The notes beneath the pieces are model-generated. The model was not told the origin of the DNA and searched no databases. It worked only from the letters and a program-made list of their open reading frames with translations. The translations under genes and the position numbers were made by a program. From Ignavibacteriales bacterium (GTDB lineage: Bacteria > Bacteroidota > Ignavibacteria > T3Sed10-11), in NCBI GenBank assembly GCA_003567775.1, contig PWYR01000094.1, positions 1 through 49,529 on the forward strand: a DNA stretch of 49,529 nucleotides. Direction: 5' to 3'. Shown piece after piece: positions 4,188-42,151 of the stretch (positions within the stretch are counted from its first letter, which is position 1; every line of letters begins with the position of its first letter).

Positions 4188-4249
4188 CGCATAGCGTGGT
4201 GTTTCCGATCCATTTACGCTTTGCTCAATGCGCCATGCGCTCTGCTCAT
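4182..4249. repeat. CGCATAGAGCAAAGCGCATAG-type imperfect palindrome
   Basis: acatagcgcatagcg ... cgctttgctcaatgcgccatgcgctctgc. Confidence 0.65.
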
Positions 4250-6621: not shown

Positions 6622-6633
6622 TTTGTTTCCCGA

Positions 6634-8994: not shown

Positions 8995-9109
8995 GAATTA
9001 TTCCTTATCATTTGTCTTTACTTTTTAGTAAACGTCAAACGTGAAACGTGAAAACGATTCACCCCTTCGATGATAGTCATTTCTCTTTTCACACATCACT
9101 TTTCATATA

Positions 9110-11494: not shown

Positions 11495-11502
11495 GTTTTT
11501 TG

Positions 11503-13911: not shown

Positions 13912-14015
13912 AGTTTTAATTCCATATTTTTTTCTTCAAAACACATAGCGAACCGAGAAGCCACGCTATGCTATTCATAACTCAATGTCTCGATCCCGCA
14001 GTTTCGGGATCTTGT

Positions 14016-16358
14016 TCATTCATACCTAAGGGACTCGACAGGATTTGCCAGTGCCGCCTTTACCGTTTGATATCCTACGGTCAAAACAGCGATAATGAAC
14101 GCAATTACTGCCGAGGTAACGAACACCCACAACTGCAAGTCAATACGATAGGCAAAACTTTCCAGCCATCTGCTCATCCCAAAGTATGCAACCGGCCAGG
14201 CGATTATGTTGGCAATGATCACCCAGCGAGTAAATTCTTTTGTAAGAAGCAATACAATCTGTGATACCGACGAGCCGAGCACTTTTCGTACACCGATCTC
14301 TTTGGTTTTTTGTTGTGTCATGTATGAAGCAAGTCCGAACAAACCGAGACACGCGATAAACAATGCCAGCACGGCAAATGATAAGAATAAATTCCCGAAC
14401 CGCTCTTCCGACTGATAAAGCCGTTCGATAGAAGCATCAAGAAAATGATATTCAAACGGATACTCCGGAGAGAAGCGATTCCAGGTATCGTGCATAAATA
14501 CAAGTGTTTCACCAAGATCCCTGTCTGAAACGTGTATCAATGCTCGTGATAATGTGTTTTCTCTCCAGGTTAACACAAGCGGTCCTATCGGTGAATGAAG
14601 CGACTGAAAATGAAAATCTCTCATTATGCCAATAATTCTGATTGTACCGTACGGTTCAATATACAACTCTCTTCCAACAGGGTCATCAAAACCGAAATAC
14701 GATACAGCGGTTTCGTTGAGAATATATGTATCTTGTCTGTCCGATTCTCTGTCCCACGAGAAGTTTCTTCCTTGAATTAATTCCAACCCAAGGATTTCCA
14801 TATAGTCCGGATCAACCGGAAGAAATGTAAACTGTTTTAACTCCTCGTCAATCATCCAGGATTCCTGCCATCCGAGATAGCCGGGAATTGCGTTGCCTCG
14901 TGATGCATCGAGTACTCCCGGATGCGAAAGCAACTCTTGTTCAAATGCATCCCATTGTCGCTGAATATCTGAATTGAGCCGCATATGTACGATACGCTCC
15001 CGGTTGAAGCCCATGTCCATTGTTTTCATATATTCAAGTTGAGTATAGATGACAATTGTACCGGCGATCAGAATGATCGATATGGAAAACTGGAACACAA
15101 TAAGTGCTTTTCGGAGTCGTGCAGCATTTTTTCCTTTTGTTACTTCACCTTTAATGACCGATGCAGGATCATATGATGTGAGATAGAAAGCAGGATATAA
15201 TCCTGCAAGAATTCCGACAAGAAAAATTCCCGTTAATAAACCGAGCAGTAGTACAGGGTCTTGGAAATAATTAACATCGATATTAGTTGCCAACAGATAA
15301 TTAAATCGAGGCAGAATTAATTCTATAATAGCTATGGCTACGATGAGTGCGAAGAAACTGATCAAAACGGATTCGCTCAGGAACTGGGTGATGAGTTGTC
15401 TGCGATGCCCGCCGATTGTTTTACGGATGCCGATCTCTTTTGCCCGTACCGTTCCTTTTGCAGTGGTAAGATTGATGAAATTTATACCGGCAATAATAAG
15501 TATAAAAACCGCGATAGCAATGAACAGATGCACCAAATTCTTGTTGCCGCGCAGACTGCCGCTCGTATACACAGCATCGTCGGCGAAGTAGATTCCGGTG
15601 AGTGGACGTAAATGGAACTCGGGTACTTGATTAAACGAAGCGAATGATTCCTTATAAAATTTATTGATCTTTGATTCCAATGCAACTATGTCCGCCCCCG
15701 GTTGTGTGAGCACGAAGGTTTGAAAATTCCAATTCCCCCGGCTTTCCATGAAATCGGGATTACCAGTCATCCGGATCAGAAGTTCGAACGGTACAACTGC
15801 ATCGATGCGAAGATGCGAGTGTGCAACATCTTTCATAATAGCGGTGACCGTCATATCCCATTGATTGAACAAATGGAGCGTTTTTCCGACCGGATTGGCG
15901 GTATCGAAAAATCTTTTCGCGGTCGATTCGGTTAGTACAATTGAAAACGGATCGTTTAGAGCGGTCTCGGGGTCACCGTGAATGAGCGGATAGGTAAATA
16001 CATCAAACAGGGACGGGTCCGCAAGGATAAGATGATCAAGGTGGAATCTGTTGTCGTCGATTTTAACGACGGGATTGTGAAAGCGGGCGTCGATACGAAC
16101 GACGTTTTCAACTTCCGGAAAATTTAACCGAATGTCGGTTCCGTATGCAGGACCGAGCATGCCCCATTCACCCGATTCAAGACGATAGATACGATCTTTT
16201 TTATCGTGGAATTGATCATAGCTGTATTCATGCTGCACGAACAACATAATCAGCGTGAATAATGCAACCCCTATTGCCAATCCGAATATATTTATAAACG
16301 AGAATCCTTTATTTCGAAGGATGTTTCGTAGTGCGGTTTTTATGTAATTGGCTAACAT
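14016..16358 (-). CDS. MacB/FtsX-type ABC transporter permease (array copy 6)
   Basis: MLANYIKTALRNILRNKGFSFINIFGLAIGV...ANPVESLRYE. Confidence 0.94.
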   Translation of the reverse strand: MLANYIKTALRNILRNKGFSFINIFGLAIGVALFTLIMLFVQHEYSYDQFHDKKDRIYRLESGEWGMLGPAYGTDIRLNFPEVENVVRIDARFHNPVVKIDDNRFHLDHLILADPSLFDVFTYPLIHGDPETALNDPFSIVLTESTAKRFFDTANPVGKTLHLFNQWDMTVTAIMKDVAHSHLRIDAVVPFELLIRMTGNPDFMESRGNWNFQTFVLTQPGADIVALESKINKFYKESFASFNQVPEFHLRPLTGIYFADDAVYTSGSLRGNKNLVHLFIAIAVFILIIAGINFINLTTAKGTVRAKEIGIRKTIGGHRRQLITQFLSESVLISFFALIVAIAIIELILPRFNYLLATNIDVNYFQDPVLLLGLLTGIFLVGILAGLYPAFYLTSYDPASVIKGEVTKGKNAARLRKALIVFQFSISIILIAGTIVIYTQLEYMKTMDMGFNRERIVHMRLNSDIQRQWDAFEQELLSHPGVLDASRGNAIPGYLGWQESWMIDEELKQFTFLPVDPDYMEILGLELIQGRNFSWDRESDRQDTYILNETAVSYFGFDDPVGRELYIEPYGTIRIIGIMRDFHFQSLHSPIGPLVLTWRENTLSRALIHVSDRDLGETLVFMHDTWNRFSPEYPFEYHFLDASIERLYQSEERFGNLFLSFAVLALFIACLGLFGLASYMTQQKTKEIGVRKVLGSSVSQIVLLLTKEFTRWVIIANIIAWPVAYFGMSRWLESFAYRIDLQLWVFVTSAVIAFIIAVLTVGYQTVKAALANPVESLRYE

Positions 16359-16376
16359 CGTGTTGTCCTTTTAACG

Positions 16377-16450
16377 CTTGGTGCAGGGCGCAAAGTGCAT
16401 AGCGCAGACCGTTTTTCTCCCGAACGCTTTGCGCTATGCTCTATGCACAT
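16377..16450. repeat. CGCATAGAGCAAAGCGCATAG-type imperfect palindrome
   Basis: cttggtgcagggcgcaaagtgcatagcgc ... cgctttgcgctatgctctatgcac. Confidence 0.7.
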
Positions 16451-16498
16451 TGCTATTCATATCTCAACGATTCAACCCCGCTCAAGGCGGGATCTCGT

Positions 16499-18889
16499 TC
16501 ATTCATATCTAAGAGACTCGACCGGATTTGCCAGCGCTGCCCGTACCGATTGATAACTCACGGTGAACAACGCAATAATAAACGCAATTGCTGCCGTAAA
16601 CAGAAACACATCCAAACCAATCTCAATACGATAAGCGTAATTTTGTAACCAGCGGTTCATTACGTAATATGCAGCCGGCAATGCTATCATATTGGCGACG
16701 AGTACCCATTTTGTGAATTCTTTTGAAAGTAACAATACAATTTTTGATACACTTGCACCGAGTACTTTGCGTACGCCGATTTCTTTTGTCCGTTGTTGCG
16801 TGGAATATGAAGCAAGACCGAACAAACCGAGACAGGCAATGAATATCGCAAGTATTGAAAAATAGAGTACAATTTGTCCGAATCGTTGTTCCGAACGATA
16901 CACCCGATCGATATCTTCGTCTAAAAAACGATATTCAAACGGCCAGTCTGCTATGTGAGCGTGCCATATTCCCCGGATGTCCTGGACGGTTTGCTGCATA
17001 TTCTCGGGCCGGATTTTTAATAATAGTTGCGAGTACCATTGGGGCCAGATGTGCAGAAAGACCGGCATAATCTGAGAATGAAGCGATTCGTAGTTGAAAT
17101 CCTTCACCACACCGACGGCTGTTCCGTCTTTCATACCTTGAAACAAATCGAACCGGGCGCCGATCGGATCTTCGAGTCCGAAATGTCTGACGGCGGCTTC
17201 GTTAAAGAGAATGGCTTCATGTTCGTCGCGTGCGTGTTCGATAGACAGGTTACGGCCTTTTACTATCTCGATACCCATCAGATCGATAAAATCGTAATCG
17301 ATTGCCATGACATTTATTAATTCGAATCGTTCGGACGGTTCGCTTATGGGACTTATCCTCCACGAATTTAATTGTTCCGACGGGACGTTCGAAGCAGCCG
17401 CAGTTTGCAGCACCGACGCATCGCTGAGGAAGGCATCTTTTAATACATCTACCTGCCGGCGAGCCTCCGGATTATTGAGTTCTACTATCAGAATTTGATC
17501 TTTATCGAAGCCGAGATCTTTTGTTCGCATGTATGTCAATTGATTATAGATGATGATCGTGCTCGCGATCAGTCCGATCGAGATTGCAAATTGTAAGGTA
17601 ACAATACCCTTCCGCAGGGCGGCATGATTGCGTACATTACCGGCGGATGATTTACCGGATAAGACGTCAACGGGCTTGTACGATGAAAGAAATAGCGCCG
17701 GATATATCCCGGCGCCGAATCCGACGAACAAAATTATTCCGAGCAATCCTGTCGCTGCAATTCCGTTTGCGAATGACCTGAGAGACATTGCTTTCCCCGT
17801 GAAATCGTTAAACCACGGGAGTGTTAACTCGATAAAAAGTAAACCGATTATGAGCGCGGCAACGGTAACGACAATTGATTCACCGATAAATTGCCGTATT
17901 AACTGCGGGCGATTGGCGCCGATTGTTTTTCGTATCCCGACTTCTTTGCTTCTGCTTACCGAGCGTGCGGTCGTAAGGTTGATGAAATTAAAACAAGCTA
18001 TTACAAGAATAAATAGTGCAATGATAACAAATATGTAAATATATGCAATGTTGCTGTTTTGCTGCAGTTCAAGATCGAAATGAGAACGAAGATGGATATC
18101 GGTTATAGGTTGCAGATGGAATTGCAAGTTTACCGTGCGTGCTCCTTCGGGCATATGTTCATTCATAAATGACGCCAGTTGTTGTTCAGGAGTTGAGGAA
18201 TCGGTGCCGGGAGAGAGCAATACATAGGTGTAGAGCCAGATGTTACCCCAATGCTGAAACCACACGGGTGAAAGCAGCGCTTTTGTGCTTTCCATGGATG
18301 CGATCAAATCGAAGTGAAAGTGAGATTGTTGCGGGAAGCCGGTTACGACTCCGGTTACAATAAAAGGATGCTGATAATCGTATAAGAGAGATTTTCCTAT
18401 CGGGTTTTCATTGCCGAAATATCGCTGTGCGGTCTCTTCGGTGATGACAACGGAGAACGGCTCGTTCAGCGCCGTCGCCGGATCGCCGTGAACAAATCGA
18501 ATTGTGAACACATCGAAAATGGCGGGATCGGCAACAAAAAAGTTCGTTTCGATAAAATCATTATCATTATATCTGATCCGGGCCTCGAACCTTGCTATCC
18601 TGACCGATTTTTCGATCTCAGGAAAATTTGCCGTGAGTATATCCGATAAAAGCCAGTTTGTTCGCGCTACTTCCCGCACTTCACCGCCGCTTGCCTCATG
18701 TGTGCGAAATACGCGGTAGATACGATCGGAATTTTCGTGAAAGCGATCGTAGGCAAATTCGTCTTTTACATACATGAATATCAGCAGGCAGCAGGCAATT
18801 CCAACTGCAAGCCCGATAATGTTAATTGCAGAATATCCTTTTTGTCGGATAATGGTACGTACTGCTATCTTAATATAGTTCGCGATCAT
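16499..18889 (-). CDS. MacB/FtsX-type ABC transporter permease (array copy 7)
   Basis: MIANYIKIAVRTIIRQKGYSAINIIGLAVGI...ANPVESLRYE; start set at MIANYIK by alignment with the other copies. Confidence 0.93.
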   Translation of the reverse strand: MIANYIKIAVRTIIRQKGYSAINIIGLAVGIACCLLIFMYVKDEFAYDRFHENSDRIYRVFRTHEASGGEVREVARTNWLLSDILTANFPEIEKSVRIARFEARIRYNDNDFIETNFFVADPAIFDVFTIRFVHGDPATALNEPFSVVITEETAQRYFGNENPIGKSLLYDYQHPFIVTGVVTGFPQQSHFHFDLIASMESTKALLSPVWFQHWGNIWLYTYVLLSPGTDSSTPEQQLASFMNEHMPEGARTVNLQFHLQPITDIHLRSHFDLELQQNSNIAYIYIFVIIALFILVIACFNFINLTTARSVSRSKEVGIRKTIGANRPQLIRQFIGESIVVTVAALIIGLLFIELTLPWFNDFTGKAMSLRSFANGIAATGLLGIILFVGFGAGIYPALFLSSYKPVDVLSGKSSAGNVRNHAALRKGIVTLQFAISIGLIASTIIIYNQLTYMRTKDLGFDKDQILIVELNNPEARRQVDVLKDAFLSDASVLQTAAASNVPSEQLNSWRISPISEPSERFELINVMAIDYDFIDLMGIEIVKGRNLSIEHARDEHEAILFNEAAVRHFGLEDPIGARFDLFQGMKDGTAVGVVKDFNYESLHSQIMPVFLHIWPQWYSQLLLKIRPENMQQTVQDIRGIWHAHIADWPFEYRFLDEDIDRVYRSEQRFGQIVLYFSILAIFIACLGLFGLASYSTQQRTKEIGVRKVLGASVSKIVLLLSKEFTKWVLVANMIALPAAYYVMNRWLQNYAYRIEIGLDVFLFTAAIAFIIALFTVSYQSVRAALANPVESLRYE

Positions 18890-18918
18890 AATGTTTATAT
18901 ATAGGTTGATTTTGTTGA

Positions 18919-21345
18919 TCATTCATATTTCAAACTTTTTCCGGGATTTGCTAATGCTGCATTAATCGCCTGATAACTTACAGATATAAGCGCGATCAGA
19001 ATGGCTATGATCCCTGCCGTTACGAAAAATCGTATACCCGGATCGATACGATACGCAAATCCTTCGAGCCATTTATTCATCGCAACATATGCAACAGGCC
19101 ATGCAATGATGTTAGCGATTACGACCAGCTTTAAAAATTCTTTCGACAGCAAACCGACAATTCCCGGAACGGACGCGCCTAACACTTTTCGGATTCCTAT
19201 TTCTTTTGTACGTTGCTCTGTCGAATATGTTGACAACCCGAGCAATCCGATGCATGAAATAAAAATCCCGATGCCTGTAAATATCCCGATGAGCTTACCG
19301 AATGCGCGGTCGGTGCGATAATATTGATCCAGTCTATCATCCAAAAAGAACCATGAAAACGGTTGCCCGCCGCTGAATTCATTCCAATGTGTTTCAATCG
19401 TATTAATTATTGCATTGATATTGCCTTCAATGCGTACTACCATGTGCATCGGTGTACTCCGTGAGATCATCATCACTTTCGGGTAAATCACCTCATGCAG
19501 CGGCTCGTAATGTACGTCTTCCGTGATACCGACAATGCTCATGGTTCGCTGCTCGTTGCCGAAAAATCCGACGAGTCTACGGCCGATCGGTTGTTCATAT
19601 CCCAGAATATTCGCGGCGCTTTCATTTATGATCACCGCATTATTGATATCGGTAGCGTAATCGGAAGAGAAGTATCGCCCCTCTTTTAAACGGATGTCCA
19701 TAAGCGGAAGAAAATCATAGTCGCTCCAGAGCTGACGCATTCTGATAAGCTGCGAGGATTCGTCGCCTTCCCGTCTGTAAACTCCGCTGTCTATATCGCG
19801 ACCGGGTAGAATTTGTGTATATGCCGCTCCGGTAATGCCCGGCTGATGTAACAGTGTTTCTTTGAAACTCTCGCTATTCCGGCCAAGGAGCCACGTGTTA
19901 TCCACCACGAGCAATTGTTCTTGATCGAACCCGAGATTGCTTGTGCGGATGAATTGTAATTGATTGTAAACGACCATCGTGCCGATGATCAATGCAATCG
20001 TCACGGCAAACTGGGTGACGACGAGGAAATTGCGCAGACGGCTGTTTCGCATACCGCTTCCCAATTCACCTTTCAATACTTTAACCGGCTGAAACGCCGA
20101 AAGAATAAATGCAGGATAGCTTCCCGCAAAAATACCGACCGATACGGTGAAGATCACTAAACCGGCTATTGCCCATGGGTTGATAAAGACCGAAAGGGAG
20201 AGAGATTTCAATGTTAAATTGTTGATAACCGGAAGCAGCAATTCAATGATGCCGAAGCTCATAACCGCGGCAATAGCGGTGAGCAGAACGGCTTCGCCGA
20301 TAAACAAAATAACTAATTGCGATTTGTCCGATCCGAGCGCTTTACGTACACCGACCTCTTTTGCGCGACGGGCGGAACGCGCTGTATTGAGATTCATATA
20401 GTTGATGCAGGCTATCGCAAGAACGAAAACGGCGATGAGTATAAGCGAATATACGGTAACGGCATTACCGCCGGGAAGTATTTCCTCGTCAAGTTGCGAG
20501 TGCAAGTGAACATCGGTTATTGGTTGGAATCGGTAACGGTAATGTAATCCCCGGGCTTCGCCCTCCCGCCAATCGATTCCCAGTATTTGCTCAACCACCG
20601 GTCGTATATTCCTGTTGACAACGGTCTGGAATGTCGATTCCGCGTGTTCGGGTGAAGCTCCTGCTTTCAATAGAACATACGTGTACCATGTATTGTTTAT
20701 CCAATTGTCTTTATCCGGAATATCCATACCGACGATAGATGCTAACATATCGAATTGCCAGTGTGATTGCGGAGGAAAACCTTTCACCACACCTGCTACT
20801 GTGTATGGAGGATCCCCATCTATTTCCAGCATTTTTCCGAGCGCCGATTTTGCTCCGAAATATTTTCGGGCGATATCGTCGGTGATGATAACGGTATTGG
20901 GTTGAGTCAGAAATGTTTTCGGATCGCCTTCTAATACGTCAATGCTGAAGACATTAAAAAACGACGAGTCGGTGAAAAACACTCGGGACTCGGTGAACAG
21001 AGTATTCTCATATCTGACGGTGACGTTGCCGGTCGGTTTGCCGTTTCGCGACCGGAAATGAGTCGCTGCTTCGATCTCCGGAAGTTCGGCGCGGAGAGTC
21101 GGGGCTACCGGACCGCTGCTGCGCGCCGTTCTCAACTCCCTGTCCGGTAGTTGCGCATCGAATGTGATGCGGTATAAGCGGTCGGTGTTTTCATGAAACC
21201 GGTCGTACGATAATTCATCGTGTACCAACATCAGAATGATCAGGAAGGCGCTCATACCGATGGCGAGTCCCGCGATATTGATTGCGGTGTAGGTTTTTTG
21301 CCGGAGCAGATTTCGGACGGCTGTTTTAAAATAGTTTGGGAGCAT
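18919..21345 (-). CDS. MacB/FtsX-type ABC transporter permease (array copy 8)
   Basis: MLPNYFKTAVRNLLRQKTYTAINIAGLAIGM...; divergent terminus ANPGKSLKYE. Confidence 0.94.
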   Translation of the reverse strand: MLPNYFKTAVRNLLRQKTYTAINIAGLAIGMSAFLIILMLVHDELSYDRFHENTDRLYRITFDAQLPDRELRTARSSGPVAPTLRAELPEIEAATHFRSRNGKPTGNVTVRYENTLFTESRVFFTDSSFFNVFSIDVLEGDPKTFLTQPNTVIITDDIARKYFGAKSALGKMLEIDGDPPYTVAGVVKGFPPQSHWQFDMLASIVGMDIPDKDNWINNTWYTYVLLKAGASPEHAESTFQTVVNRNIRPVVEQILGIDWREGEARGLHYRYRFQPITDVHLHSQLDEEILPGGNAVTVYSLILIAVFVLAIACINYMNLNTARSARRAKEVGVRKALGSDKSQLVILFIGEAVLLTAIAAVMSFGIIELLLPVINNLTLKSLSLSVFINPWAIAGLVIFTVSVGIFAGSYPAFILSAFQPVKVLKGELGSGMRNSRLRNFLVVTQFAVTIALIIGTMVVYNQLQFIRTSNLGFDQEQLLVVDNTWLLGRNSESFKETLLHQPGITGAAYTQILPGRDIDSGVYRREGDESSQLIRMRQLWSDYDFLPLMDIRLKEGRYFSSDYATDINNAVIINESAANILGYEQPIGRRLVGFFGNEQRTMSIVGITEDVHYEPLHEVIYPKVMMISRSTPMHMVVRIEGNINAIINTIETHWNEFSGGQPFSWFFLDDRLDQYYRTDRAFGKLIGIFTGIGIFISCIGLLGLSTYSTEQRTKEIGIRKVLGASVPGIVGLLSKEFLKLVVIANIIAWPVAYVAMNKWLEGFAYRIDPGIRFFVTAGIIAILIALISVSYQAINAALANPGKSLKYE

Positions 21346-21507: not shown

Positions 21508-22209
21508 CTACGACGCCGCAACACCTGCTGCTGTCTTCAATATATTCTCCGACACAATATGTCCATCAAATAGATACACGATACGATGCGCATACTCGGC
21601 ATACATTTGTGCGTGAGTTACCATGATGATCGTCGTACCGTCCTCATTTAATTCGGTGAGCATCTTCATAACCTCATCGCCGTGCGCGGAGTCGAGGTTA
21701 CCGGTCGGCTCGTCGGCGAGGATGAGTTTCGGTTTTGCAATGATCGCCCGGGCAACGGCGACACGCTGCTGCTGACCGCCGGAAAGTTGCTGGGGAAAAT
21801 GGTTTCGCCTGTGTGCTATCTCCATCTGTTCGAGTACTTCTTCGACACGTTGTTTCCGATCCGATCCTGAATATCCGAGGTACAGCAGAGGCAGCTCAAC
21901 ATTCTCAAAAACGGTTAGTTCATCGATCAGGTTGAAGCTTTGAAATACGAACCCGATATTCGATTTACGTAGATTTGCCCGTTGACGCTCGGTGTGTTTC
22001 GATACTTCATGGTTGAGAAAATGATATTCACCGCCCGATGGGTTGTCGAGCAGTCCTAAAATATTGAGCAGCGTCGATTTACCGCATCCCGACGGCCCCA
22101 TAATGGCGACGAATTCACCTTCGTGTACTTCAAGATTTACGTTGTTTAATGCAGTTGTTTCCACCTCTTCGGTGGTGTAGAGCTTTTTGAGGTTGATTGT
22201 TCGTAGCAT
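21508..22209 (-). CDS. ABC transporter ATPase, MacB/LolD type
   Basis: Walker A GPSGCGKST, signature LSGGQQQRVAVARAI, Walker B LILADEPTGNLDS. Confidence 0.96.
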   Translation of the reverse strand: MLRTINLKKLYTTEEVETTALNNVNLEVHEGEFVAIMGPSGCGKSTLLNILGLLDNPSGGEYHFLNHEVSKHTERQRANLRKSNIGFVFQSFNLIDELTVFENVELPLLYLGYSGSDRKQRVEEVLEQMEIAHRRNHFPQQLSGGQQQRVAVARAIIAKPKLILADEPTGNLDSAHGDEVMKMLTELNEDGTTIIMVTHAQMYAEYAHRIVYLFDGHIVSENILKTAAGVAAS

Positions 22210-22296: not shown

Positions 22297-22665
22297 CTAT
22301 TTGGTTTTGGATATTAACATGGATAACCTACCAAATAACTGGTTCATTTCTGCTTCGATAATCTCTAGTTCTCTTTCATTGCAATATTCTAATTGTTTCG
22401 CAATTTCAAGTTGTGTGTCAAGTTCAACCAATGAAGATCTGGCGATTTCGTAGAATCGTCGCCTATCTTTTATATTTGATCTCGAAGCACCTTCTGCAAT
22501 ATTAGATGAAATTGAAACCACAGATCTTCGTATTTGGGATATCAATGCATACAATTCATGGTTTGGAAATTTATGAGTTAGCTTATATATGTGTACGATA
22601 AATTGTATACTTTGTTGCCACACTTCGAGTTTCTTATGTCCGAGGGATAACATTTTTTCCTCCAT
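22297..22665 (-). CDS. Four-helix-bundle protein (S23 / 23S rRNA intervening-sequence protein family)
   Basis: LGHKKLEVWQQSIQFIVHIYKLTHKFPNHELYALISQIRRSVVSISSNIAEGASR...FYEIARSSLVELDTQL is the family pattern. Confidence 0.92.
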   Translation of the reverse strand: MEEKMLSLGHKKLEVWQQSIQFIVHIYKLTHKFPNHELYALISQIRRSVVSISSNIAEGASRSNIKDRRRFYEIARSSLVELDTQLEIAKQLEYCNERELEIIEAEMNQLFGRLSMLISKTK

Positions 22666-22812: not shown

Positions 22813-24063
22813 TCACCTCAACATCAACCGGTCGATATCCCCGAACCCGTCATACGACGATGTTATCACCTGTTCACCCGGCTCAAGTCCTTCGATTACT
22901 TCAAAATACTGCGGGTTTTGTCTACCTAACCGGATATTTCTTTTAATGGCCTGATCACCCGAGGCGCTGACTACATACACCCACTGACCGCCGGTTCGCT
23001 GGAAGAAGCCGCCGCGTGCAAGAAGAATGGCATCTTCAAGTGCGCCGAGTGCAAGGCGGATGCGCAATGTTTGTCCTCGCCGGATATTATCCGGTTCATC
23101 GCCGACAAATTCCATATCGACTTCGAACCTCCCCTCGCGAACCTGCGGATAGACGCGGGTGATTTCGAGGGTGTACGTTTGCCCGGCAAAATCGAATTCT
23201 CCCCGCTGGCCTATATTGATGCGGGCGATATAATGTTCATCGATCGATGCGCGGACACGAAAACCCTCGAGGATATCGATCTGACCTAACCTCTCGCCCC
23301 GCGATTTCGACGCGCCGATCTCGGCATTGAGCGAAGTAAGTTGTCCGCTCACCGGAGCGGTGAGAATAAGATTGTGTAGACTGCCCCGTACGAGTTCGAG
23401 GTTTGTCATCATCCGCTCAAGCGACGATTCGATATGACGGAGCTGATTCTCGGTAGCAAGCGAATCCAATCGCAATGTTTCGGCGACAAGCATAAGTTGC
23501 CGTTCCATTTGCTCGTAGGCTTCCCTCGAATCGAGATATTCCTGTTCGGAGATGAGATTCTTTTCCCATAATTCTTCATTCTGATGGTAGATTCGTTTGC
23601 GATTTTTCATTTGATATTCATAAGAGAGTACCTGTTCACGCAGACGAAGCCGCTGCTGCTGGAGATTCAACCGGGTATTTTGCAGGTTGTTGATCTGCTC
23701 GAGAAAATGCGCTTCACGACTGAATACATCGAGCTGTAAAGTGCTATTATTAAGCGTTAAGATTGTATCGCCTTCTTCGACAATGCTGCCGTCTTCAATA
23801 TGAATTTTTTCTACGCGGCCGCCCTCAATTGCATCCATATAAATAGTTCGAAGCGGGATGACGGTGCCGCTGACCGGAATGAATTCAAGAAATTCGCCAT
23901 GCCGGACTGTCGATATGGTAATTCTGTCGCGGTCGACGTTCAGCCGCGAACCGCTTTCGCTGATGACAAAGCTGTAGATAGTGAAGATTATAAAAAGAGC
24001 CGTGAATGCTATGAGAGCAATTTTTTTAGGCGTCCATTTCTTTTTTTCTATTTTTCGGTCCAT
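22813..24063 (-). CDS. HlyD/MacA-like periplasmic adaptor (membrane fusion protein)
   Basis: N-terminal TM, biotinyl-lipoyl-like segments, long coiled coil, beta-barrel region with FAGQTYTLEITRVYPQVREGRFEVDMEF; adjacent to the ABC ATPase. Confidence 0.92.
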   Translation of the reverse strand: MDRKIEKKKWTPKKIALIAFTALFIIFTIYSFVISESGSRLNVDRDRITISTVRHGEFLEFIPVSGTVIPLRTIYMDAIEGGRVEKIHIEDGSIVEEGDTILTLNNSTLQLDVFSREAHFLEQINNLQNTRLNLQQQRLRLREQVLSYEYQMKNRKRIYHQNEELWEKNLISEQEYLDSREAYEQMERQLMLVAETLRLDSLATENQLRHIESSLERMMTNLELVRGSLHNLILTAPVSGQLTSLNAEIGASKSRGERLGQIDILEGFRVRASIDEHYIARINIGQRGEFDFAGQTYTLEITRVYPQVREGRFEVDMEFVGDEPDNIRRGQTLRIRLALGALEDAILLARGGFFQRTGGQWVYVVSASGDQAIKRNIRLGRQNPQYFEVIEGLEPGEQVITSSYDGFGDIDRLMLR

Positions 24064-24132: not shown

Positions 24133-24148
24133 TGCAATAAGTGCGCCA
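24133..24148 (-). promoter_or_regulatory. Putative sigma54 promoter upstream of the adaptor gene
   Basis: Minus strand TGGCGCACTTATTGCA: GG and GC separated by exactly 10 nt; about 60 nt leader to the ATG. Confidence 0.7.
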
Positions 24149-24198
24149 CATGTAATATTTATGATTTTTGGCAGAATTTGGCATTTTTTAAAAATAGA

Positions 24199-24236
24199 GT
24201 GTCAACATACCGGACACTGGTGTTCGGAATCGGACA
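24199..24236. promoter_or_regulatory. Putative activator-binding paired dyads
   Basis: GTGTCaacataccgGACAC followed by TGTTCGgaatCGGACA; same layout at 27729-27766. Confidence 0.65.
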
Positions 24237-24380
24237 GGTGGGAGCCATACATGCCCGTCGCCTACAGTTGTTAGATTACGGGAAAATCGTCGATGATACA
24301 TTCCCTTTTTTATAATGGTGACGGGCACGTTTCCATTAAATGGGTAGTTGTTTCTTGACTTTTTGGACACCCCCGGATCC

Positions 24381-24415
24381 GTCAGCACCGATTGATATCT
24401 TACCGTTATCAATGC
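24381..24415 (-). pseudogene. Degenerate permease C-terminal remnant
   Basis: Minus strand reads ALITVRYQSVLT, like the ALTTVSYQAIRTAVANPV region of intact copies, then diverges. Confidence 0.55.
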
Positions 24416-24491
24416 TCATTGATTTTTATATAAAAACTTCTTAACTTATTTCCGAAATTCAGAAAGTCAGGAATCCAGAAATAGAAATAAA

Positions 24492-24740
24492 ATGTCAAAA
24501 ACTGTTCAAATCAGAAAAAAAGGTACGCTGACCCTTCCGATGGAATTCCGTAAAAGGTATCAACTCGGAGAGGGCGATCCCGTGACGTTGATTGATCTCG
24601 ACGAAGGGATTTTTCTAAGTCCAAAAGCTTCCGTATTACCCAAACTGGTCTCACAAATTGAAACACTCCGGGAAAAGCGTAACATTTCATTAGCTGAGCT
24701 CATTGATGGTGTCCAAACAATTCGGAACCAGAAAGATTAG
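24492..24740 (+). CDS. AbrB/MazE-type antitoxin-like DNA-binding protein
   Basis: MSKTVQIRKKGTLTLPMEFRKRYQLGEGDPVTLIDLDEGIFLSPK swapped-hairpin pattern. Confidence 0.85.
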   Translation: MSKTVQIRKKGTLTLPMEFRKRYQLGEGDPVTLIDLDEGIFLSPKASVLPKLVSQIETLREKRNISLAELIDGVQTIRNQKD

Positions 24741-24742
24741 TT

Positions 24743-25186
24743 TTGCCTGAGTTATCTATAATCAGAGTATTTTTCGATTCAGATGCTATCATTGCCGGTT
24801 CTGCATCCCGCAAGGGCGCCGCCTTTATTTTGCTGCAATTAGCTGAGTTGGGTTTGATCGAGGGGGTTGCCTCGGTAAAAGTGATCGACGAATGCCGGAA
24901 GAATCTTGAGATGAAACTTCCCGAAGCCCTCCCTGCTTTTGAACAGATAGTCTCGCACGCACTGAACATTGTAAATAACCCATCTCAAGAAAAAACCGTG
25001 CAATACACACAAATGGCGCATATAAAAGATGTACCCATTTTAACCGCGGCCATTACGACAAATGCAAATTTTCTGGTTACCTTTAATACCAAGGATTTTT
25101 ATCCCGAACCTCATGTAGATTTAAACGTCGTTGAGCCCGGAGAATTATTAAACAGAATTCGTCATATACTCGGCCAAATGACTTAA
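24743..25186 (+). CDS. PIN-domain protein (probable toxin, TTG start)
   Basis: VFFDSDAIIAG acidic motif, internal E/D motifs, ILTAAITTNANFLVTFNTKDF; 2 nt after the AbrB-like ORF. Confidence 0.82.
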   Translation: MPELSIIRVFFDSDAIIAGSASRKGAAFILLQLAELGLIEGVASVKVIDECRKNLEMKLPEALPAFEQIVSHALNIVNNPSQEKTVQYTQMAHIKDVPILTAAITTNANFLVTFNTKDFYPEPHVDLNVVEPGELLNRIRHILGQMT

Positions 25187-25203
25187 TGAATGCATATGGA
25201 ATA

Positions 25204-27609
25204 CTATTCGTATTTTAATGCTTCGACCGGATTCGTAAACGCAGCCCGTACCGATTGATAGCCCACTGTGAGTATGGCAATCAATAATATTGCCGCCATA
25301 GCCAATAAGAATATACCGATACCTATGGACGTCCGGTACGCGAAGTTCTCCAGCCATTTCGTCATGAAATAATACGCAACCGGCGATGCGATGAGGATGG
25401 AGACCGTTACAAGCAGCACGTACTCTTTTGACAGCAGCATGAATATCCCCGATATAGACGAGCCGAGGACTTTCCGTATGCTTATCTCTTTTTTCCGCTG
25501 CTCGACGGTAAACGAAACAAGCCCGAACAACCCGATACACGCAATAAAAATGGCGAGGAACGATGAGACGGTAAATATTTGGGCAAACAAATGATCGTCG
25601 CCGTATAAGTCATACAGATAATCATCGTAGAAGAAATAGGTAAAAGGAGGATAGGAAATATTTTCATTCCAAATTCTTTCTATATCCGATACCAGCCTGG
25701 ATATATCATTTGTGTTATATGCGATGGTTATATATTGTAAATTTGAAAACTCCCGATCTATGAGCAGAAATACCATCGGCTCGACCGGATGGTGAAGGGG
25801 CTTGAAGTGAAAATCTTTTACCACACCAATAATCTCGCCGGATAGATCATCACCCCACTTTTGCCCGACTATTGTCTCCGGTGAAAGGTAACCAAGCCGT
25901 CGGGCGGTAGTCTCATTGACTACTATTTTTTGATCGAGATCTGCCGGGTGGTCTGGAGAGAACCATCTCCCCGCAGTCAGAGGTATGTTATATATATCTA
26001 TAAAATCGTAATCTACAGAGTAAATCGATAGTACCATTTCTCGCGTTCCACCTGCTTGTGTTTGGAATTCACGCCCCGAAGTTTGTGTTGATCCTCCTAA
26101 CATTCCTGCCGATACCGTTACTCCCGAGACATCGTGCCGATTGAGAAAATCCTGCTTTATTGCGTTGTATGAATTGGTAACCTCTGGATACCGTTCCATA
26201 CCGGTGTCGATTACCAATAGTGAGTCCGTTTTAAACCCGAGTTCCTTGTTCTTAATGTAACCGAGCTGTTGATAAATGATAATGCTGCTTATTATGATAC
26301 CGGCAGATATTATAAATTGTAAAACGACTAGTGCTTTTCGTAAGGATAATTTACCTTTTTGAACGGGTGAATGCATTTTCAGAATGTGAATCGGCAGCAT
26401 CCTTGATATATATACCGAAGGATAAAAACCGGCAGTAATCCCTATAATAATTGCAAATAACGGAATTGCGATAATCAGATTATCCATTTGTGAAAAAATG
26501 GATGAATAATTCTTATTTGCGAGCGCATTAAATAACGGCAGTCCCAATTCGGCAAGCGAAAGTGCAATGAATGAGGAAAGTATGCTTATCATCACTGATT
26601 CGAATATAAACTGGTTTCTGATTGCTTTTCTGTCCGATCCGAGCACTTTCCGGATGCTTATCTCCTTTGTGCGTTTTGTTGCAATTACAGTGGATATTAA
26701 AACATAATTCACACAGGCAAGGAGAATTATTAAAAATGTAATTGCAATGAAGATAACGACATTTGCGGGGTTTCCGGTTGGTCCAATTTGCCCGAAACGT
26801 GTTGAATTGAGGTAGATCCATGTGAGCGGCTCGAGTCCAAATGAAAGTCTGTAACCGATTTCCTCTCCTTTTACTACATACTCATCATAAAAACCTTCAA
26901 GTTTGTTTTCCAGTTCAGTAATATTCACATTTTGATCAATAAGTAGATACGTATAAAATCCTCCGTCGAACCAGTTTTGTGTCCAGGCTTGGTATGTTTC
27001 AGGACTGACGGTTGAATATGAAACCAACATATCAAATTGTATATGTGAATTGGAAGGAATGTTTTGTAGTACACCGGTGACTATAAATTCATACTGCCCG
27101 ATACTCAGGATGGTTTTACCCAACGGGTTTTCTTCTCCGAAATATTTTCGCGCGGTCTGTTCTGTCATAACAACACTCCGGGGTTCGGTTAGTGCCGTTT
27201 CAGGGTTGCCGCGAATAAGCTCAAAATTGAAGATATTGAATATAGATTGGTCGACAATAAATACGTTATCCTCCGTAAATGTTTTTTCATTATAACTAAA
27301 CACATATTGTGCATGACGGAATCGAACATAATTATGTATTTCAGGGTACAAATCGGTTATTGCAGGACCGACCGGGAAGGCAGTAAGCGCTCCTTTGAAC
27401 TCCTCATCGTGGCCATAGACATCCCAACCGAGCCGGTATATTTGATCTGATTTTACGTAAAACCGGTCGTAGCTTAGCTCGTCTTTAATCCAGATAAACA
27501 GGAGAATACTCACCGCAATGCAGATCGAAAGCCCGGTGATGTTGATGAACGAAAAAAGTTTGTTTCTCCGGAGATTTCGGAGAGAAGTGATAAGGTAGTT
27601 TTTGAGCAT
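25204..27609 (-). CDS. MacB/FtsX-type ABC transporter permease (array copy 9, separate unit)
   Basis: MLKNYLITSLRNLRRNKLFSFINITGLSICI...TNPVEALKYE; start moved from 27678 because the ORF extension covers a promoter. Confidence 0.93.
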   Translation of the reverse strand: MLKNYLITSLRNLRRNKLFSFINITGLSICIAVSILLFIWIKDELSYDRFYVKSDQIYRLGWDVYGHDEEFKGALTAFPVGPAITDLYPEIHNYVRFRHAQYVFSYNEKTFTEDNVFIVDQSIFNIFNFELIRGNPETALTEPRSVVMTEQTARKYFGEENPLGKTILSIGQYEFIVTGVLQNIPSNSHIQFDMLVSYSTVSPETYQAWTQNWFDGGFYTYLLIDQNVNITELENKLEGFYDEYVVKGEEIGYRLSFGLEPLTWIYLNSTRFGQIGPTGNPANVVIFIAITFLIILLACVNYVLISTVIATKRTKEISIRKVLGSDRKAIRNQFIFESVMISILSSFIALSLAELGLPLFNALANKNYSSIFSQMDNLIIAIPLFAIIIGITAGFYPSVYISRMLPIHILKMHSPVQKGKLSLRKALVVLQFIISAGIIISSIIIYQQLGYIKNKELGFKTDSLLVIDTGMERYPEVTNSYNAIKQDFLNRHDVSGVTVSAGMLGGSTQTSGREFQTQAGGTREMVLSIYSVDYDFIDIYNIPLTAGRWFSPDHPADLDQKIVVNETTARRLGYLSPETIVGQKWGDDLSGEIIGVVKDFHFKPLHHPVEPMVFLLIDREFSNLQYITIAYNTNDISRLVSDIERIWNENISYPPFTYFFYDDYLYDLYGDDHLFAQIFTVSSFLAIFIACIGLFGLVSFTVEQRKKEISIRKVLGSSISGIFMLLSKEYVLLVTVSILIASPVAYYFMTKWLENFAYRTSIGIGIFLLAMAAILLIAILTVGYQSVRAAFTNPVEALKYE

Positions 27610-27661
27610 GGTGTTGTAACTCCTGAAATTGGTACCCCGTGTACCTTTGTTCACTAAATAC

Positions 27662-27677
27662 GGCAAAAAGTGCGCCA
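27662..27677 (-). promoter_or_regulatory. Putative sigma54 promoter upstream of array copy 9
   Basis: Minus strand TGGCGCACTTTTTGCC: GG-N10-GC, near-identical to the site at 24133-24148. Confidence 0.7.
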
Positions 27678-27728
27678 AATAATATTTTGGTGATTTTTAA
27701 AAGATTTTAGCAATACTTAGTCGACCGA

Positions 27729-27766
27729 GTGTCACTTTACCGGACACAGGTGTTCGGGAACGGACA
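27729..27766. promoter_or_regulatory. Putative activator-binding paired dyads
   Basis: GTGTCactttaccgGACAC followed by TGTTCGggaaCGGACA. Confidence 0.65.
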
Positions 27767-27780
27767 GTCGGGATTATGGC

Positions 27781-27890
27781 ACACTGATGACGCACCTGTC
27801 CGCCGAGTATTTTGGCGGAGATGATACTGATTTTCACTGATTAGATATAATAAAATCTGTAAGCATCTTTCACATCAGTGTCATCAGTGT
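27781..27890. repeat. Imperfect inverted repeat element
   Basis: acactgatgac (27781-27791) and gtcatcagtgt (27880-27890) with related internal actgattttcactgatt. Confidence 0.6.
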
Positions 27891-27912
27891 TCCATAAATT
27901 TTATTAATTCAC

Positions 27913-27951
27913 TCATACTTGGACGGGATTCGTAAACGCAGCCCTTAATGA
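27913..27951 (-). pseudogene. Degenerate permease C-terminal remnant
   Basis: Minus strand SLRAAFTNPV then frameshifted KYE*, matching copy 9 tail SVRAAFTNPVEALKYE. Confidence 0.65.
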
Positions 27952-28042
27952 ACCGGTGAAATTCCCTATGTATATTTACCCGCAATCATAATCAACAAGT
28001 ATTCTTTTCTTCGAATAAATTATTTATATTGCAACAAACCAC

Positions 28043-28058
28043 TGTCCGTTTCCGTACA
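28043..28058. promoter_or_regulatory. Putative activator-binding dyad upstream of its own gene
   Basis: TGTCCGtttcCGTACA fits the TGTYCG-N4-CGNACA pattern of the other two sites. Confidence 0.45.
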
Positions 28059-28107: not shown

Positions 28108-29487
28108 ATGCGTTCAAAACACGGCAAACTCCTTATCATCGATGACGACGAAGACGTCCTCACCGCTGCGCGGTTGTTTCTAAAACAGCATGTAGCATCG
28201 GTGCACACCGAAAAGAATCCGGAAAAGATCCCGTTCCTTATCACGAATGAGTCATACGACGTCATTTTACTCGATATGAACTATACACGCGATGCCACAA
28301 GCGGGAAGGAGGGATTCCACTGGCTTAATAAGATAATCGAACTCGATCCCTCGGCGGTCGTTATTCTCATAACTGCTTATGGCGATATAGAGATGGCGGT
28401 CCGGGCAATCAAAGAAGGTGCGATGGATTTCATTACCAAACCGTGGCAAAACGAGAAATTACTCGCTACCGTAAATGCGGCATTAAAATTGCATAGTTCA
28501 AGATTAAAGATCGATTCGCTCCGTCAGCGTCAGCAACAATTGAGCGCCGATCTCGATCAGCCGTTTCATGAGATGATCGGAACGTCGCCGGCGATGCAGG
28601 ATGTGTTCGGAATAATAAAGAAAGTAGCAAAGACCGATGCGAACGTGCTGATTATCGGTGAGAACGGCACGGGTAAAGAACTTGTCGCGCGGGCGATCCA
28701 CCGGCAGTCCGATCGCGCGAACGAGGTTTTTATCAGCGTAGATATGGGATCGATTACGGAGACGCTGTTCGAAAGTGAGCTTTTCGGCTATACAAAAGGT
28801 GCATTCACCGACGCAAAACAGGATAAACCGGGAAGATTTGAAATTGCATCCGGTGGCACGCTGTTCCTCGACGAAATCGGCAATATATCGCTTCAACAGC
28901 AATCGAAACTTTTAACCGTTTTGCAAAATCGCGAGGTGTATCGCCTCGGATCGAATACACCGCGTCCGATCGACATCCGGCTGCTCTGTGCGACAAACAT
29001 GCCGATTCACGATATGGTAAACGATAATATTTTCAGACAGGACCTGCTTTACCGGATCAACACCGTAGAAATACACGTACCCCCGCTGCGCGATCGTGTT
29101 GAGGATATACCGCTTTTGGTCGAACATTTTCTTGCCGTCTATTCAAAACGTTATAGAAAAAATGTGAAACGATGCTGCTCCGCAGCATTGAAAAAATTGG
29201 AAAATTATTCATGGCCAGGTAATGTCCGGGAATTGCAGCATGCAATCGAGCGGGCAGTAATAATGAGCGATTCGGATATGCTGCAGCCGCAGGATTTTTT
29301 GTTGCAGCGAAGCGAGCAGCACGAAAACGGCATACACGCTCAATCTTTTAAACTCGATGATGTTGAGAAAATAACTATCTTAAAGGCAATCGATAAGTAC
29401 GACGGCAACATCAGCAAAGCGGCGCGTGAACTTGGATTAACGCGCGCATCATTATATCGCCGGTTGGAAAAATATGGCCTACAATAA
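28108..29487 (+). CDS. NtrC-type sigma54-dependent response regulator
   Basis: Receiver (IIDDDED, LLDMNY, FITKPW), AAA+ (GENGTGKELVARAIH, GAFTDA, GGTLFLDEI), Fis-type HTH (ISKAARELGLTRASLYRRLEKYGL). Confidence 0.96.
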   Translation: MRSKHGKLLIIDDDEDVLTAARLFLKQHVASVHTEKNPEKIPFLITNESYDVILLDMNYTRDATSGKEGFHWLNKIIELDPSAVVILITAYGDIEMAVRAIKEGAMDFITKPWQNEKLLATVNAALKLHSSRLKIDSLRQRQQQLSADLDQPFHEMIGTSPAMQDVFGIIKKVAKTDANVLIIGENGTGKELVARAIHRQSDRANEVFISVDMGSITETLFESELFGYTKGAFTDAKQDKPGRFEIASGGTLFLDEIGNISLQQQSKLLTVLQNREVYRLGSNTPRPIDIRLLCATNMPIHDMVNDNIFRQDLLYRINTVEIHVPPLRDRVEDIPLLVEHFLAVYSKRYRKNVKRCCSAALKKLENYSWPGNVRELQHAIERAVIMSDSDMLQPQDFLLQRSEQHENGIHAQSFKLDDVEKITILKAIDKYDGNISKAARELGLTRASLYRRLEKYGLQ

Positions 29488-30874
29488 ATTCAGAATACAT
29501 GTTACACTGCAAGTACTCTTACTCGGAGTTACCGTCTTCATTGTATTGTACCTCTACGTTAGAACCGATTTTGTAGCAACATTATTTCTGATAGGTGCAG
29601 TTATCGTGTTTCAGATTGTTTATCTCATCAGATATGTGGAAACAACAAACCGGGAATTGAACCGCTTTCTGAATGCGATGAAACACGAGGATTATTCGAC
29701 CTCGTTTGCAGGTCTCAAGATCGGGCCGTCATTCGATCAATTGCACAAAACATTTTCCGATTTCACTCAGCAATTTATTCAGGTTCGATCGGAGAAAGAG
29801 GAAAACTACCGGTTCCTTCAGACTGTTGTGCAGCATGTCGGAACGGGCGTTATCTCGTTTGAACCGGGCGGGGAGATTGCGTTGATGAATGCTGCTGCAA
29901 AGCGATTGCTGCATATCGGCGATGTAAAGAACATCAAAAAGCTCAATAACGATGAGCATCGCATAGGCGATACGTTACTCCGGTTGCGAGCAGGTGAAAC
30001 TATGCTCATTCCTTCGACATTCGATAGCACCCGGCAGACCCTTGCAGCGTATGCCACCGAATATAAACTCGGCGAGAAAAAATATACGCTGGTTTCTCTC
30101 CAGAATATTCAAAATGAACTTGACCGCGAGCGAATGGCGAAGGAGCTTGAGATTGCCCGGACAATACAAAAATCGTTGCTGCCGGATCAAAATCCCCGGG
30201 TGCCGGGCTACCGGATTTCGGGTGTCTGCATACCGGCTAAAGAGGTGGGCGGCGATTATTATGACTTCATTCACCTGCCGGATGGTAAACTTGCGCTGAT
30301 CATCGCCGACGTATCGGGAAAAGGTATCCCTTCGGCATTTTATATGACATTGACCAAAGGCATGATACAGTCCCAAATACTGTATACGGGTTCACCAAAG
30401 GAGATCCTGATCCGTGTTAATAATCTTTTGTACAATACCATTGCCGAGAAGTTTTTCGTAACCATGTTTTTTGCAGTGCTGGATCCCGAAAAACGAACAT
30501 TGGTCTGTACCCGTGCAGGACATAATTCTGCAATACATTATCAGTGCGAAACGACACATGTATCACACATACGGCCCGACGGAATCGGGCTCGGTCTTGA
30601 ACGGGGCGAGGTCTTTGAAAAAAATCTTCAAGAGCAAACGCTCCACCTCAAGCGCGGGGATGTAGTTGTTTTCTATACGGACGGATTTACCGAGGCATAC
30701 AATAACGACCGGGTGGAATATGGAGAGAAAAAACTTATGGATTTGATTCAACTCAATGCATCGGTTGATCCGGATGAACTGATTCAAAAAATAACCGACG
30801 ATGTAACGTCATTCACCGGCGCCAACCACCGGCACGATGATATGACAATGATTGCGATAAAGGTGACGGACTGA
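29474..30874 (+). CDS. Membrane-anchored SpoIIE/PP2C-type serine phosphatase with PAS-like sensor
   Basis: Two TMs, PAS-like segment, then LEIARTIQKSLLP, GGDYYDF, IADVSGKGIPSAFYM, FYTDGFTEA, DDMTMIAIK. Confidence 0.93.
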   Translation: MAYNKFRIHVTLQVLLLGVTVFIVLYLYVRTDFVATLFLIGAVIVFQIVYLIRYVETTNRELNRFLNAMKHEDYSTSFAGLKIGPSFDQLHKTFSDFTQQFIQVRSEKEENYRFLQTVVQHVGTGVISFEPGGEIALMNAAAKRLLHIGDVKNIKKLNNDEHRIGDTLLRLRAGETMLIPSTFDSTRQTLAAYATEYKLGEKKYTLVSLQNIQNELDRERMAKELEIARTIQKSLLPDQNPRVPGYRISGVCIPAKEVGGDYYDFIHLPDGKLALIIADVSGKGIPSAFYMTLTKGMIQSQILYTGSPKEILIRVNNLLYNTIAEKFFVTMFFAVLDPEKRTLVCTRAGHNSAIHYQCETTHVSHIRPDGIGLGLERGEVFEKNLQEQTLHLKRGDVVVFYTDGFTEAYNNDRVEYGEKKLMDLIQLNASVDPDELIQKITDDVTSFTGANHRHDDMTMIAIKVTD

Positions 30875-30876
30875 CG

Positions 30877-32232
30877 ATGATCTACAAACATTTTCGTCTT
30901 CATATTATTATTCGCGTGGTACTTATCAGCGCGTCCGTATTATTGCTGTTCTATTTATTGTTTCAAACGGACCTCTATGCGACAACCGCCATCATAGGTT
31001 TGGCGATAGGATTGCAAATATACGGTTTAATCCGTTTTGTCGATCAAACCAACCGCGATCTCTCCCGCTTTTTACTTGCAATTCGTCATGGCGATTACTC
31101 ACAATCATTCACTCCGCGTGCATCGGGCAGATCGTTTAAAGAATTGCACGATGCTTTTAATGAAGTAATCAGTTTTATTCAGGAGCAGCGGTCGGAGAAG
31201 GAAGAGCAATACTGGTATCTCCAGGCAGTTGTACAGCATATCGGGATGGGATTGATAGCATTCCGGCAAAACGGTGAGATCGATCTCATCAACGGCGCCG
31301 CGAGGAAACTTCTTCGAGCTATTACGACACATACCCGACAAGCGGGAGTTACACCCCGGTCTATTCAATCGCTCGAACAAATAAACAAGCCGCTTGCCGA
31401 TGCCGTGTATGCATTGCAGGATGGCGGAAAAAATATCGTCAAAATTCAGACGAGCGATGATATATTTCATCTAGCGGTTTACGCTACAATGTTCAAACTC
31501 GGCGGCGATAGATATACGCTCGTTTCGTTTCAAAATATCGGGCGCGAGCTGGAAGAGAAGGAGATGGAGGCATGGCAGAATCTCATCCGCGTTCTTACGC
31601 ATGAGATAATGAATTCCGTAACTCCCATTTCATCGCTTGCCTCAACCGGGAGTTCGTTAGTTAAAAGTGAAATAGCCGGAGAGGTTGTCGATGATATTCG
31701 CGATGCTTTTCAAACCATTGAGAAGCGAAGCGAGGGTTTGCTTCATTTCGTTAATGCTTACCGGAACCTTACGCGTATTCCGAAGCCCTCGTTTCAAATC
31801 ACCCCGGTGAAAGATATGTTTAATAATATAATCAAATTGCTAAAGCCCCAGATCGCAGGGAACAACACAATGGTTGAAACATCTGTAGAACCGAAAAAAC
31901 TCGAGGTTACCGCCGATCCGGAGTTAATCGAGCAGGTGTTAATAAATTTGCTGAAAAACAGCATCGAGGCATTGCAGGAAAGAGACGGCGCAGTCATACG
32001 GCTCACCGCACGGCTCGATCCGCAGGGACGAGTTGTGATGCAGGTAGCGGATAACGGTCCGGGGATCGTGCCGGAGGCAATCGAAAAAATATTTATTCCG
32101 TTTTTTACCACAAAGGATAACGGATCGGGCATCGGTTTGAGTCTTTCACGCCAGATCATGCGTCTCCACGGCGGGTCGATCAGTGTTCGTTCAATCCCCG
32201 ATAAAGAGACGGTTTTCACGTTGCGGTTTTAG
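30877..32232 (+). CDS. Sensor histidine kinase
   Basis: H-box VLTHEIMNSVTPI, N-box LINLLKNSIEAL, DNGPGI, GSGIGLSLSRQIMRLHGGSI; N-terminal half resembles the preceding phosphatase. Confidence 0.95.
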   Translation: MIYKHFRLHIIIRVVLISASVLLLFYLLFQTDLYATTAIIGLAIGLQIYGLIRFVDQTNRDLSRFLLAIRHGDYSQSFTPRASGRSFKELHDAFNEVISFIQEQRSEKEEQYWYLQAVVQHIGMGLIAFRQNGEIDLINGAARKLLRAITTHTRQAGVTPRSIQSLEQINKPLADAVYALQDGGKNIVKIQTSDDIFHLAVYATMFKLGGDRYTLVSFQNIGRELEEKEMEAWQNLIRVLTHEIMNSVTPISSLASTGSSLVKSEIAGEVVDDIRDAFQTIEKRSEGLLHFVNAYRNLTRIPKPSFQITPVKDMFNNIIKLLKPQIAGNNTMVETSVEPKKLEVTADPELIEQVLINLLKNSIEALQERDGAVIRLTARLDPQGRVVMQVADNGPGIVPEAIEKIFIPFFTTKDNGSGIGLSLSRQIMRLHGGSISVRSIPDKETVFTLRF

Positions 32233-39719: not shown

Positions 39720-39752
39720 AATATCTTTCGTTACAATATAGGAGAAATCCAA

Positions 39753-42145: not shown

Positions 42146-42151
42146 TGCGGT

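Follow-up and report, generated by a model that had tools for sequence, protein, structure and literature searches.

Organization of the locus

The 49,529-nucleotide contig PWYR01000094.1 of an Ignavibacteriales bacterium (assembly GCA_003567775.1), called the window here at its full length, carries an array of nine MacB/FtsX-type permease genes on the minus strand and a gene for an NtrC-type activator of sigma-54 promoters on the plus strand. The predicted control sites that connect the two are the main subject of this analysis (Table 1). All nine permeases share 33-44% identity with one another. The hallmarks of MacB/FtsX (type VII) ATP-binding cassette (ABC) systems were found by Pfam, namely the MacB_PCD and FtsX domains (permeases 7, 8 and 9), an ATPase and an adaptor; the other permeases were assigned by alignment.

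The adaptor, S23 and ATPase genes and permeases 8 to 2 share one strand and are spaced 8-162 bp apart, except that permeases 8 and 7 overlap. No intrinsic terminator on the array strand was found in the inter-gene gaps of the run from the adaptor to permease 2. A single transcript of ~20 kb from the adaptor to permease 2 is therefore plausible. The first-pass annotation, made from the sequence alone, had proposed a possible single unit of ~24 kb containing permeases 8 to 1. This larger unit was rejected because a plus-strand DUF4143 ATPase gene (2925-4187) intervenes and splits off permease 1. Permease 9 is a separate unit with its own predicted promoter.

Table 1. Genes of the permease array and its regulator, with their predicted control sites. 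Positions are those of the whole 49,529-nt stretch; the maximum of the weighted -24/-12 score is 14.9.
Feature	Position	Strand	Sequence or pattern	Basis and remarks
Permease 1	436..2814	minus		Opposite-strand gene 2925-4187 lies between it and the operon
DUF4143/AAA ATPase gene between permeases 2 and 1	2925-4187	plus		
Permeases 8 to 2 (7 MacB/FtsX-type)	4246..21345	minus		7 and 8 by Pfam, others by alignment
ABC ATPase	21508..22209	minus		Pfam; only ATPase seen in the array
S23/23S_rRNA_IVP four-helix protein	22297..22665	minus		Pfam; within the operon; adaptor-S23-ATPase order kept in the genus
HlyD/MacA-type adaptor	22813..24063	minus		Pfam; first gene of the operon; kept in 5/6 genus genomes
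Predicted sigma-54 -24/-12 promoter of the adaptor-S23-ATPase-permease operon	24133-24148; 24133..24149	minus	TGGCGCACTTATTGCA; GTGGCGCACTTATTGCA	GG-N10-GC; score 13.2/14.9; 71 bp from the distal dyad; alignable to 6 genus promoters
Operon promoter, predicted promoter-proximal activator site	24199..24217	minus	GTGTC-N9-GACAC; TGTCCGGTATGTTGACAC	
Operon promoter, predicted distal activator site	24221..24236	minus	TGTTCG-N4-CGGACA; TGTCCGATTCCGAACA	Centre 20.5 bp from that of the proximal site
Permease 9	25204..27610	minus		MacB_PCD + FtsX (Pfam); own predicted sigma-54 promoter; likely ATG at ~27610 after AGGAGTT ribosome-binding site
Predicted sigma-54 -24/-12 promoter of permease 9	27662-27677; 27662..27678	minus	TGGCGCACTTTTTGCC; TTGGCGCACTTTTTGCC	GG-N10-GC; score 13.4/14.9
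Permease 9 promoter, predicted proximal activator site	27729..27747	minus	GTGTC-N9-GACAC	
Permease 9 promoter, predicted distal activator site	27751..27766	minus	TGTTCG-N4-CGGACA; TGTCCGTTCCCGAACA	
Putative autoregulatory activator site	28043..28058	plus	TGTCCGTTTCCGTACA	49 bp upstream of the activator ATG at 28108
Response-regulator enhancer-binding protein (activator)	28108..29487	plus		Receiver, AAA+ sigma-54 activator domain with GAFTDA loop, Fis-type helix-turn-helix (Pfam)
SpoIIE/PP2C-type phosphatase	29474..30874	plus		Pfam; N-terminal half duplicates the kinase sensor part
Sensor histidine kinase (HATPase_c)	30877..32232	plus		Pfam; adjoins the activator gene in almost every orthologous locus

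Paired sites and promoter boxes in the window and its genome

Upstream of both the adaptor gene and permease 9 lies a two-dyad composite, exact (0 mismatches) at 24199-24236 and 27729-27766. Good -24/-12 boxes (13.2 and 13.4 of 14.9) are found on the array strand 71-72 bp from the distal dyads at 24221 and 27751. The motif letters and coordinates of the first-pass annotation (24133, 27662, both dyad types and the 28043 site) were all recovered, including the matching dyad upstream of the activator gene at 28043-28058, 49 bp before the ATG. Its description of two different dyads was correct in letters and positions and was revised in meaning. Read on the array strand, each composite consists of two copies of one TGTCCG site, first TGTCCG-N4-CGAACA and then TGTCCG-N5-(T)GACA, with 20.5 bp between the centres; the supposed second dyad is the second copy. 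The symmetric form GTGTC-N9-GACAC is not retained in two congeners, which have AACAC or AGCAC as the right half.

The genome of origin (2,277,369 bases, ~68% complete) was scanned by pattern search, with the reversed pattern as control. At no more than 3 mismatches the two-dyad composite occurs in exactly 2 places in 2.28 Mb, both of them in the window, and the reversed control gave 0; the two-dyad model of the first-pass annotation is thus specific to this locus in the sequence available. The -24/-12 box alone is common: the window contains 37 matches (at most 2 mismatches) against 34 expected, and the genome 122 against 204 for the reversed control. Boxes at such an ordinary frequency therefore prove nothing alone, and their significance lies in the dyads and the fixed spacing. 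The rpoN gene, whose presence the first-pass annotation had proposed to check, was found (PF04552, E=2.5e-60, G000:C48:15568-16044).

The single TGTYCG-N4-CGRACA dyad (at most 1 mismatch) has 29 sites in the genome. Five lie outside long reading frames, three of these in the window (24221, 27751, 28043), and only 24221 and 27751 are accompanied by a good box. The 29 dyads were also considered as a large regulon. This was rejected, as 24 are inside long reading frames and good promoter boxes accompany dyads in the window only. Within ~68% of the genome the predicted regulon looks confined to this locus. The suggestion of a closed regulon therefore holds for the part of the genome examined, and closure as such is unprovable on an incomplete genome.

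Conservation within the genus

Six genomes of the genus were compared, G000 (the genome of the window) to G005. The composite is present with 1-2 mismatches in G001, G002 and G003, upstream of the adaptor gene or of a permease 9 homolog. In G005 the adaptor and activator genes are directly divergent and share a slightly different composite. Activator orthologs (88-91%) were detected in G002, G003 and G005 and adaptors in G001, G002, G003 and G005; in this comparison neither was found in G004. In G002 and G003 the activator gene is preceded by the same site as the one at 28043 in the window.

The motifs shared by the two window promoters could also stem from a recent duplication, in which permease 9 was copied together with its upstream region, and would then not reflect selected regulation. 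The two promoters are indeed partly similar also in the spacer that separates box and dyads. However, in an alignment of seven promoters from the genus the invariant columns concentrate in TGTCCG-N4-CGAACAC, the second TGTCCG and TGGC/TG within the box. The layout also persists in distantly related Bacteroidota in which no other part of the region can be aligned. Such a duplication is an extremely improbable source of the pattern.

In G002 (L158) ~10 kb of other genes separates permease 9 from the activator, among them an M12-type peptidase with a sorting tail, an AraC-type regulator and a radical SAM protein. The site pair upstream of the activator recurs in the same genome (L158, 6186 and 9950), with the second copy at 6186.

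Layout across orthologous loci

A search with the activator yielded 80 orthologous loci, mostly from Bacteroidota, with some from Latescibacterota, Balneolota and metagenome-assembled genomes labelled Chlorobiota or Ignavibacteriales. An array adaptor or ATPase gene is divergent from the adjoining activator in 38 of the 80. TGTYCG-N4-CGRACA (at most 2 mismatches) was detected in 37 of these 38 divergent intergenic regions, compared with ~1 in shuffled sequences. No array adjoins the activator in the remaining 42 loci, but in 23 of them the dyad is still present at the activator.

The -24/-12 boxes of relatives were ranked by the weighted score, as a strict GG-N10-GC pattern (at most 3 mismatches) missed most of them, the -12 element there being GT or GG. 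In 37/38 regions the array strand carries a box scoring at least 11 whose distance to the best dyad is 62-63, 70-73 or 84-86 bp, compared with 10/38 for the control strand. The 62-63 bp group represents the proximal site of the same two-dyad layout. The full layout, meaning two dyads 20.5-22 bp apart and a -24/-12 box at a fixed distance on the array strand, is present in 34 of the 44 array promoters and in none of the 44 on the opposite strand. In the genus of the window the site centres lie ~80 and ~60 bp upstream of the -24 box, elsewhere ~94 and ~72 bp. A match of the motifs by chance is ruled out by the uniqueness of the composite, the dyad counts in orthologs and the joint layout counts. 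Judged from these comparisons, the window contains the local form of an old regulatory module that is widely distributed among Bacteroidota and their relatives.

The activator and its contact loop

The AAA+ domain of the activator was identified with high significance (PF00158, E=4.3e-66), and the receiver (PF00072) and Fis-type helix-turn-helix (PF02954) domains were above the cut-off. The Walker A and B motifs are GENGTGKE and GGTLFLDEI. The sole unusual feature of the regulator is the sigma-54 contact loop, which reads GAFTDA instead of GAFTGA; all 80 orthologs have GAFTDA or GSFTDA. GAFTDA is also found in another activator of the same genome (L129). In a survey of Desulfovibrio this sequence is among the loop variants that keep activity, and DVU2106 has assigned target operons (PMC4641369).

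If the loop had lost its contact, the dyads would still bind the activator, the array would be activated without sigma-54, and the protein would act as an ordinary activator or repressor. The altered loop in every ortholog fits this explanation, as does a study in which sigma-54 was not detected with a different GAFTDA protein (PMC10714721). It would leave unexplained why a GG-N10-G(C/T) box follows the dyads at a fixed distance on the array strand only (the 34/44 against 0/44 above), and the Desulfovibrio data and the second GAFTDA activator of the genome also speak against it. Activation independent of sigma-54 is thus considered unlikely.

DNA-only search and the recognition helix

Two patterns consisting of dyad and box, with no protein, were searched in 396 genomes of the phylum. 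There were 7 matches, of which 2 are directly upstream of an array adaptor and 1 is upstream of an array-type permease; the remaining 4 resemble chance. Both adaptor matches have a divergent activator 45% identical to that of the window. The gene neighbourhood was not used in this search and the matches therefore provide independent support, extending the layout beyond close orthologs.

The dyad also follows the recognition helix of the activator. Where the helix (T/S)R(A/S)SLY is kept, the dyad was found in 60 of 65 loci. Where it is changed, to ITRASLY...EL in nine Bacteroidales or to TRSALY in five Latescibacterota, the dyad was found in 0 of 14 (L082 has almost no upstream DNA and was excluded from this count). 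Helix and dyad thus appear to change together and the direction is clear, one changed-helix clade being nested among dyad-bearing ones. The clade with ITRASLY...EL (L019, L029, L045, L046, L060, L068, L074, L076, L080) has neither a dyad nor an adjoining array.

Palindromic sites are used by other factors too, and binding of the activator to these ones is a prediction, so the dyads might belong to a different DNA-binding protein while the activator acts elsewhere. The loss of the dyad in clades with a changed recognition helix and its persistence at the activator gene where the array is absent (23/42 loci) make this very unlikely.

The promoter of the activator gene

On the activator side the dyad is followed by TAnnTTTG or TAnnTTAG, mostly 5-8 bp on. 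Exact TAnnTTTG was present in 23 of 60 cases, against a single one of 60 on the mirror side. Nine exact matches directly adjoin the dyad (offset 0) and may instead belong to the second dyad. TAnnTTTG is the Bacteroidota -7 box, located at -12 to -5 (PMC9723704). A dyad 5-8 bp upstream of it would therefore occupy roughly -36 to -18, making the -33 region inaccessible. This arrangement predicts that in many relatives the activator represses its own gene. No clear -7 box was found after the 28043 site in the window. The possible autoregulation noted in the first-pass annotation is strengthened, as the dyad is fixed over the expected -33 region of the activator promoter in many relatives; the promoter in the window itself is unclear.

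Proposed mechanism

The sites, boxes, spacing, genes, rpoN and conservation described above were read from sequence, and the best explanation for them as a whole is that the NtrC-type activator and sigma-54 control the array via paired upstream sites, which is considered very probable. The core of the first-pass annotation is therefore retained, supported by rpoN, conservation in the genus, the joint layout, the DNA-only matches and the tracking of the recognition helix. In the mechanism proposed here binding, phosphorylation, activation, the sign of the feedback and the extent of the operon are all predicted. The membrane sensor kinase would phosphorylate the activator, two dimers of which would occupy the paired similar sites, about two helical turns apart and centred 60 and 80 bp upstream of the -24 element. 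The bound dimers would then form an AAA+ ring and open sigma-54 RNA polymerase at two promoters, one reading into the adaptor, S23, ATPase and permease 8 to 2 genes (~20 kb) and the other into permease 9. The site upstream of the activator gene would serve for feedback; most likely the bound activator would mask the -33 region of a housekeeping-type promoter and so repress its own gene.

Several points weigh against this explanation. The absence of an adjoining array in 42/80 loci means that the link is not universal, or that the array is located elsewhere. In some relatives the -12 element is GT or GG instead of GC. The contact loop is GAFTDA rather than GAFTGA, with all orthologs likewise departing from the usual form, and the sigma-54-negative study of another GAFTDA protein applies here as well. 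By itself the -24/-12 box is no more frequent than expected by chance. The changes of helix and dyad represent few independent events in the tree, and a count-based p-value therefore overstates this evidence. The genome itself is only ~68% complete.

The paired dyads may be an old bidirectional switch of Bacteroidota and their relatives, in which the same dimers activate the sigma-54 promoter of the array and repress the housekeeping promoter of the activator by covering -33. In the genus of the window the arrival of permease 9 between the two parts would have divided this switch, with a site left to each of them. The chances of this scenario are about even.

Neighbouring genes and other features of the array

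In the genus of the window and in L066 the SpoIIE/PP2C phosphatase gene lies between activator and kinase, while in most relatives the kinase directly follows the activator. Residues 1-275 of the phosphatase share 37% identity with the sensor part of the kinase. The S23 gene is located between adaptor and ATPase throughout the genus (the window and L156, L157, L161, L162; 61-88% identity). In the arrays of Algoriphagus and Aliifodinibius (L037, L062, L086) an opposite-strand S23 gene adjoins the ATPase gene. The gaps 16359-16498, 21346-21507 and 2815-4245 are filled by variants of short repeated words, e.g. GCATAGAGCATAGCGCAAAGCG. A separate cluster at 35809-42739 encodes a molybdopterin oxidoreductase with a 4Fe-4S subunit, an FdhE-like protein and a MobA-like nucleoside triphosphate transferase.

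Significance and comparison with known systems

FtsX/MacB permease arrays are common in Bacteroidota, and to our knowledge little is known of the triggers that switch them on. One signal-responsive regulator could switch on a large transporter cluster via two matching control regions, and many Bacteroidota and their relatives have the same layout next to related clusters. Some carriers, such as the Algoriphagus strains A. alkaliphilus DSM 22703 and A. chordae DSM 19830, are in culture, and the trigger and role of the arrays are directly testable in them. No description of the regulator, site or layout was found in the open-access literature, which was the scope of the search, subscription journals lying outside it. 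The mechanism is classical; new is that the regulator, its DNA sites and a conserved promoter layout are named together.

Like the NtrC-family sigma-54 enhancer-binding proteins NtrC and ZraR, the activator has a receiver, a sigma-54 AAA+ domain and a Fis-type helix-turn-helix, predicted paired dyads before a -24/-12 promoter and likely feedback on itself. It differs from them in the GAFTDA loop, in its own motif TGTYCG-N4-CGRACA arranged in tight pairs near the promoter, in having an FtsX/MacB array as target, and in the SpoIIE phosphatase with the sensor part of the kinase that lies between activator and kinase. The array resembles MacAB-type and type VII ABC systems in its HlyD/MacA-like adaptor, ABC ATPase and MacB_PCD and FtsX permeases. 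It is unlike them in its separate ATPase, its nine diverged permeases and the S23 protein in the operon.

The closest precedent is a 2025 survey, in which sigma-54 promoters were predicted before COG0577 (FtsX-like) permeases in Bacteroidia and called the first evidence of the link (PMC12316311). Both studies use promoter prediction to connect sigma-54 with this class of permease, and in the same phylum. In the passages of the survey consulted here these permeases are assigned neither an activator nor a binding site or layout, whereas all three are proposed here and tested by comparison. A regulator and a mechanism are thereby supplied for a link between sigma-54 and permeases that was formerly predicted from promoter scores alone.

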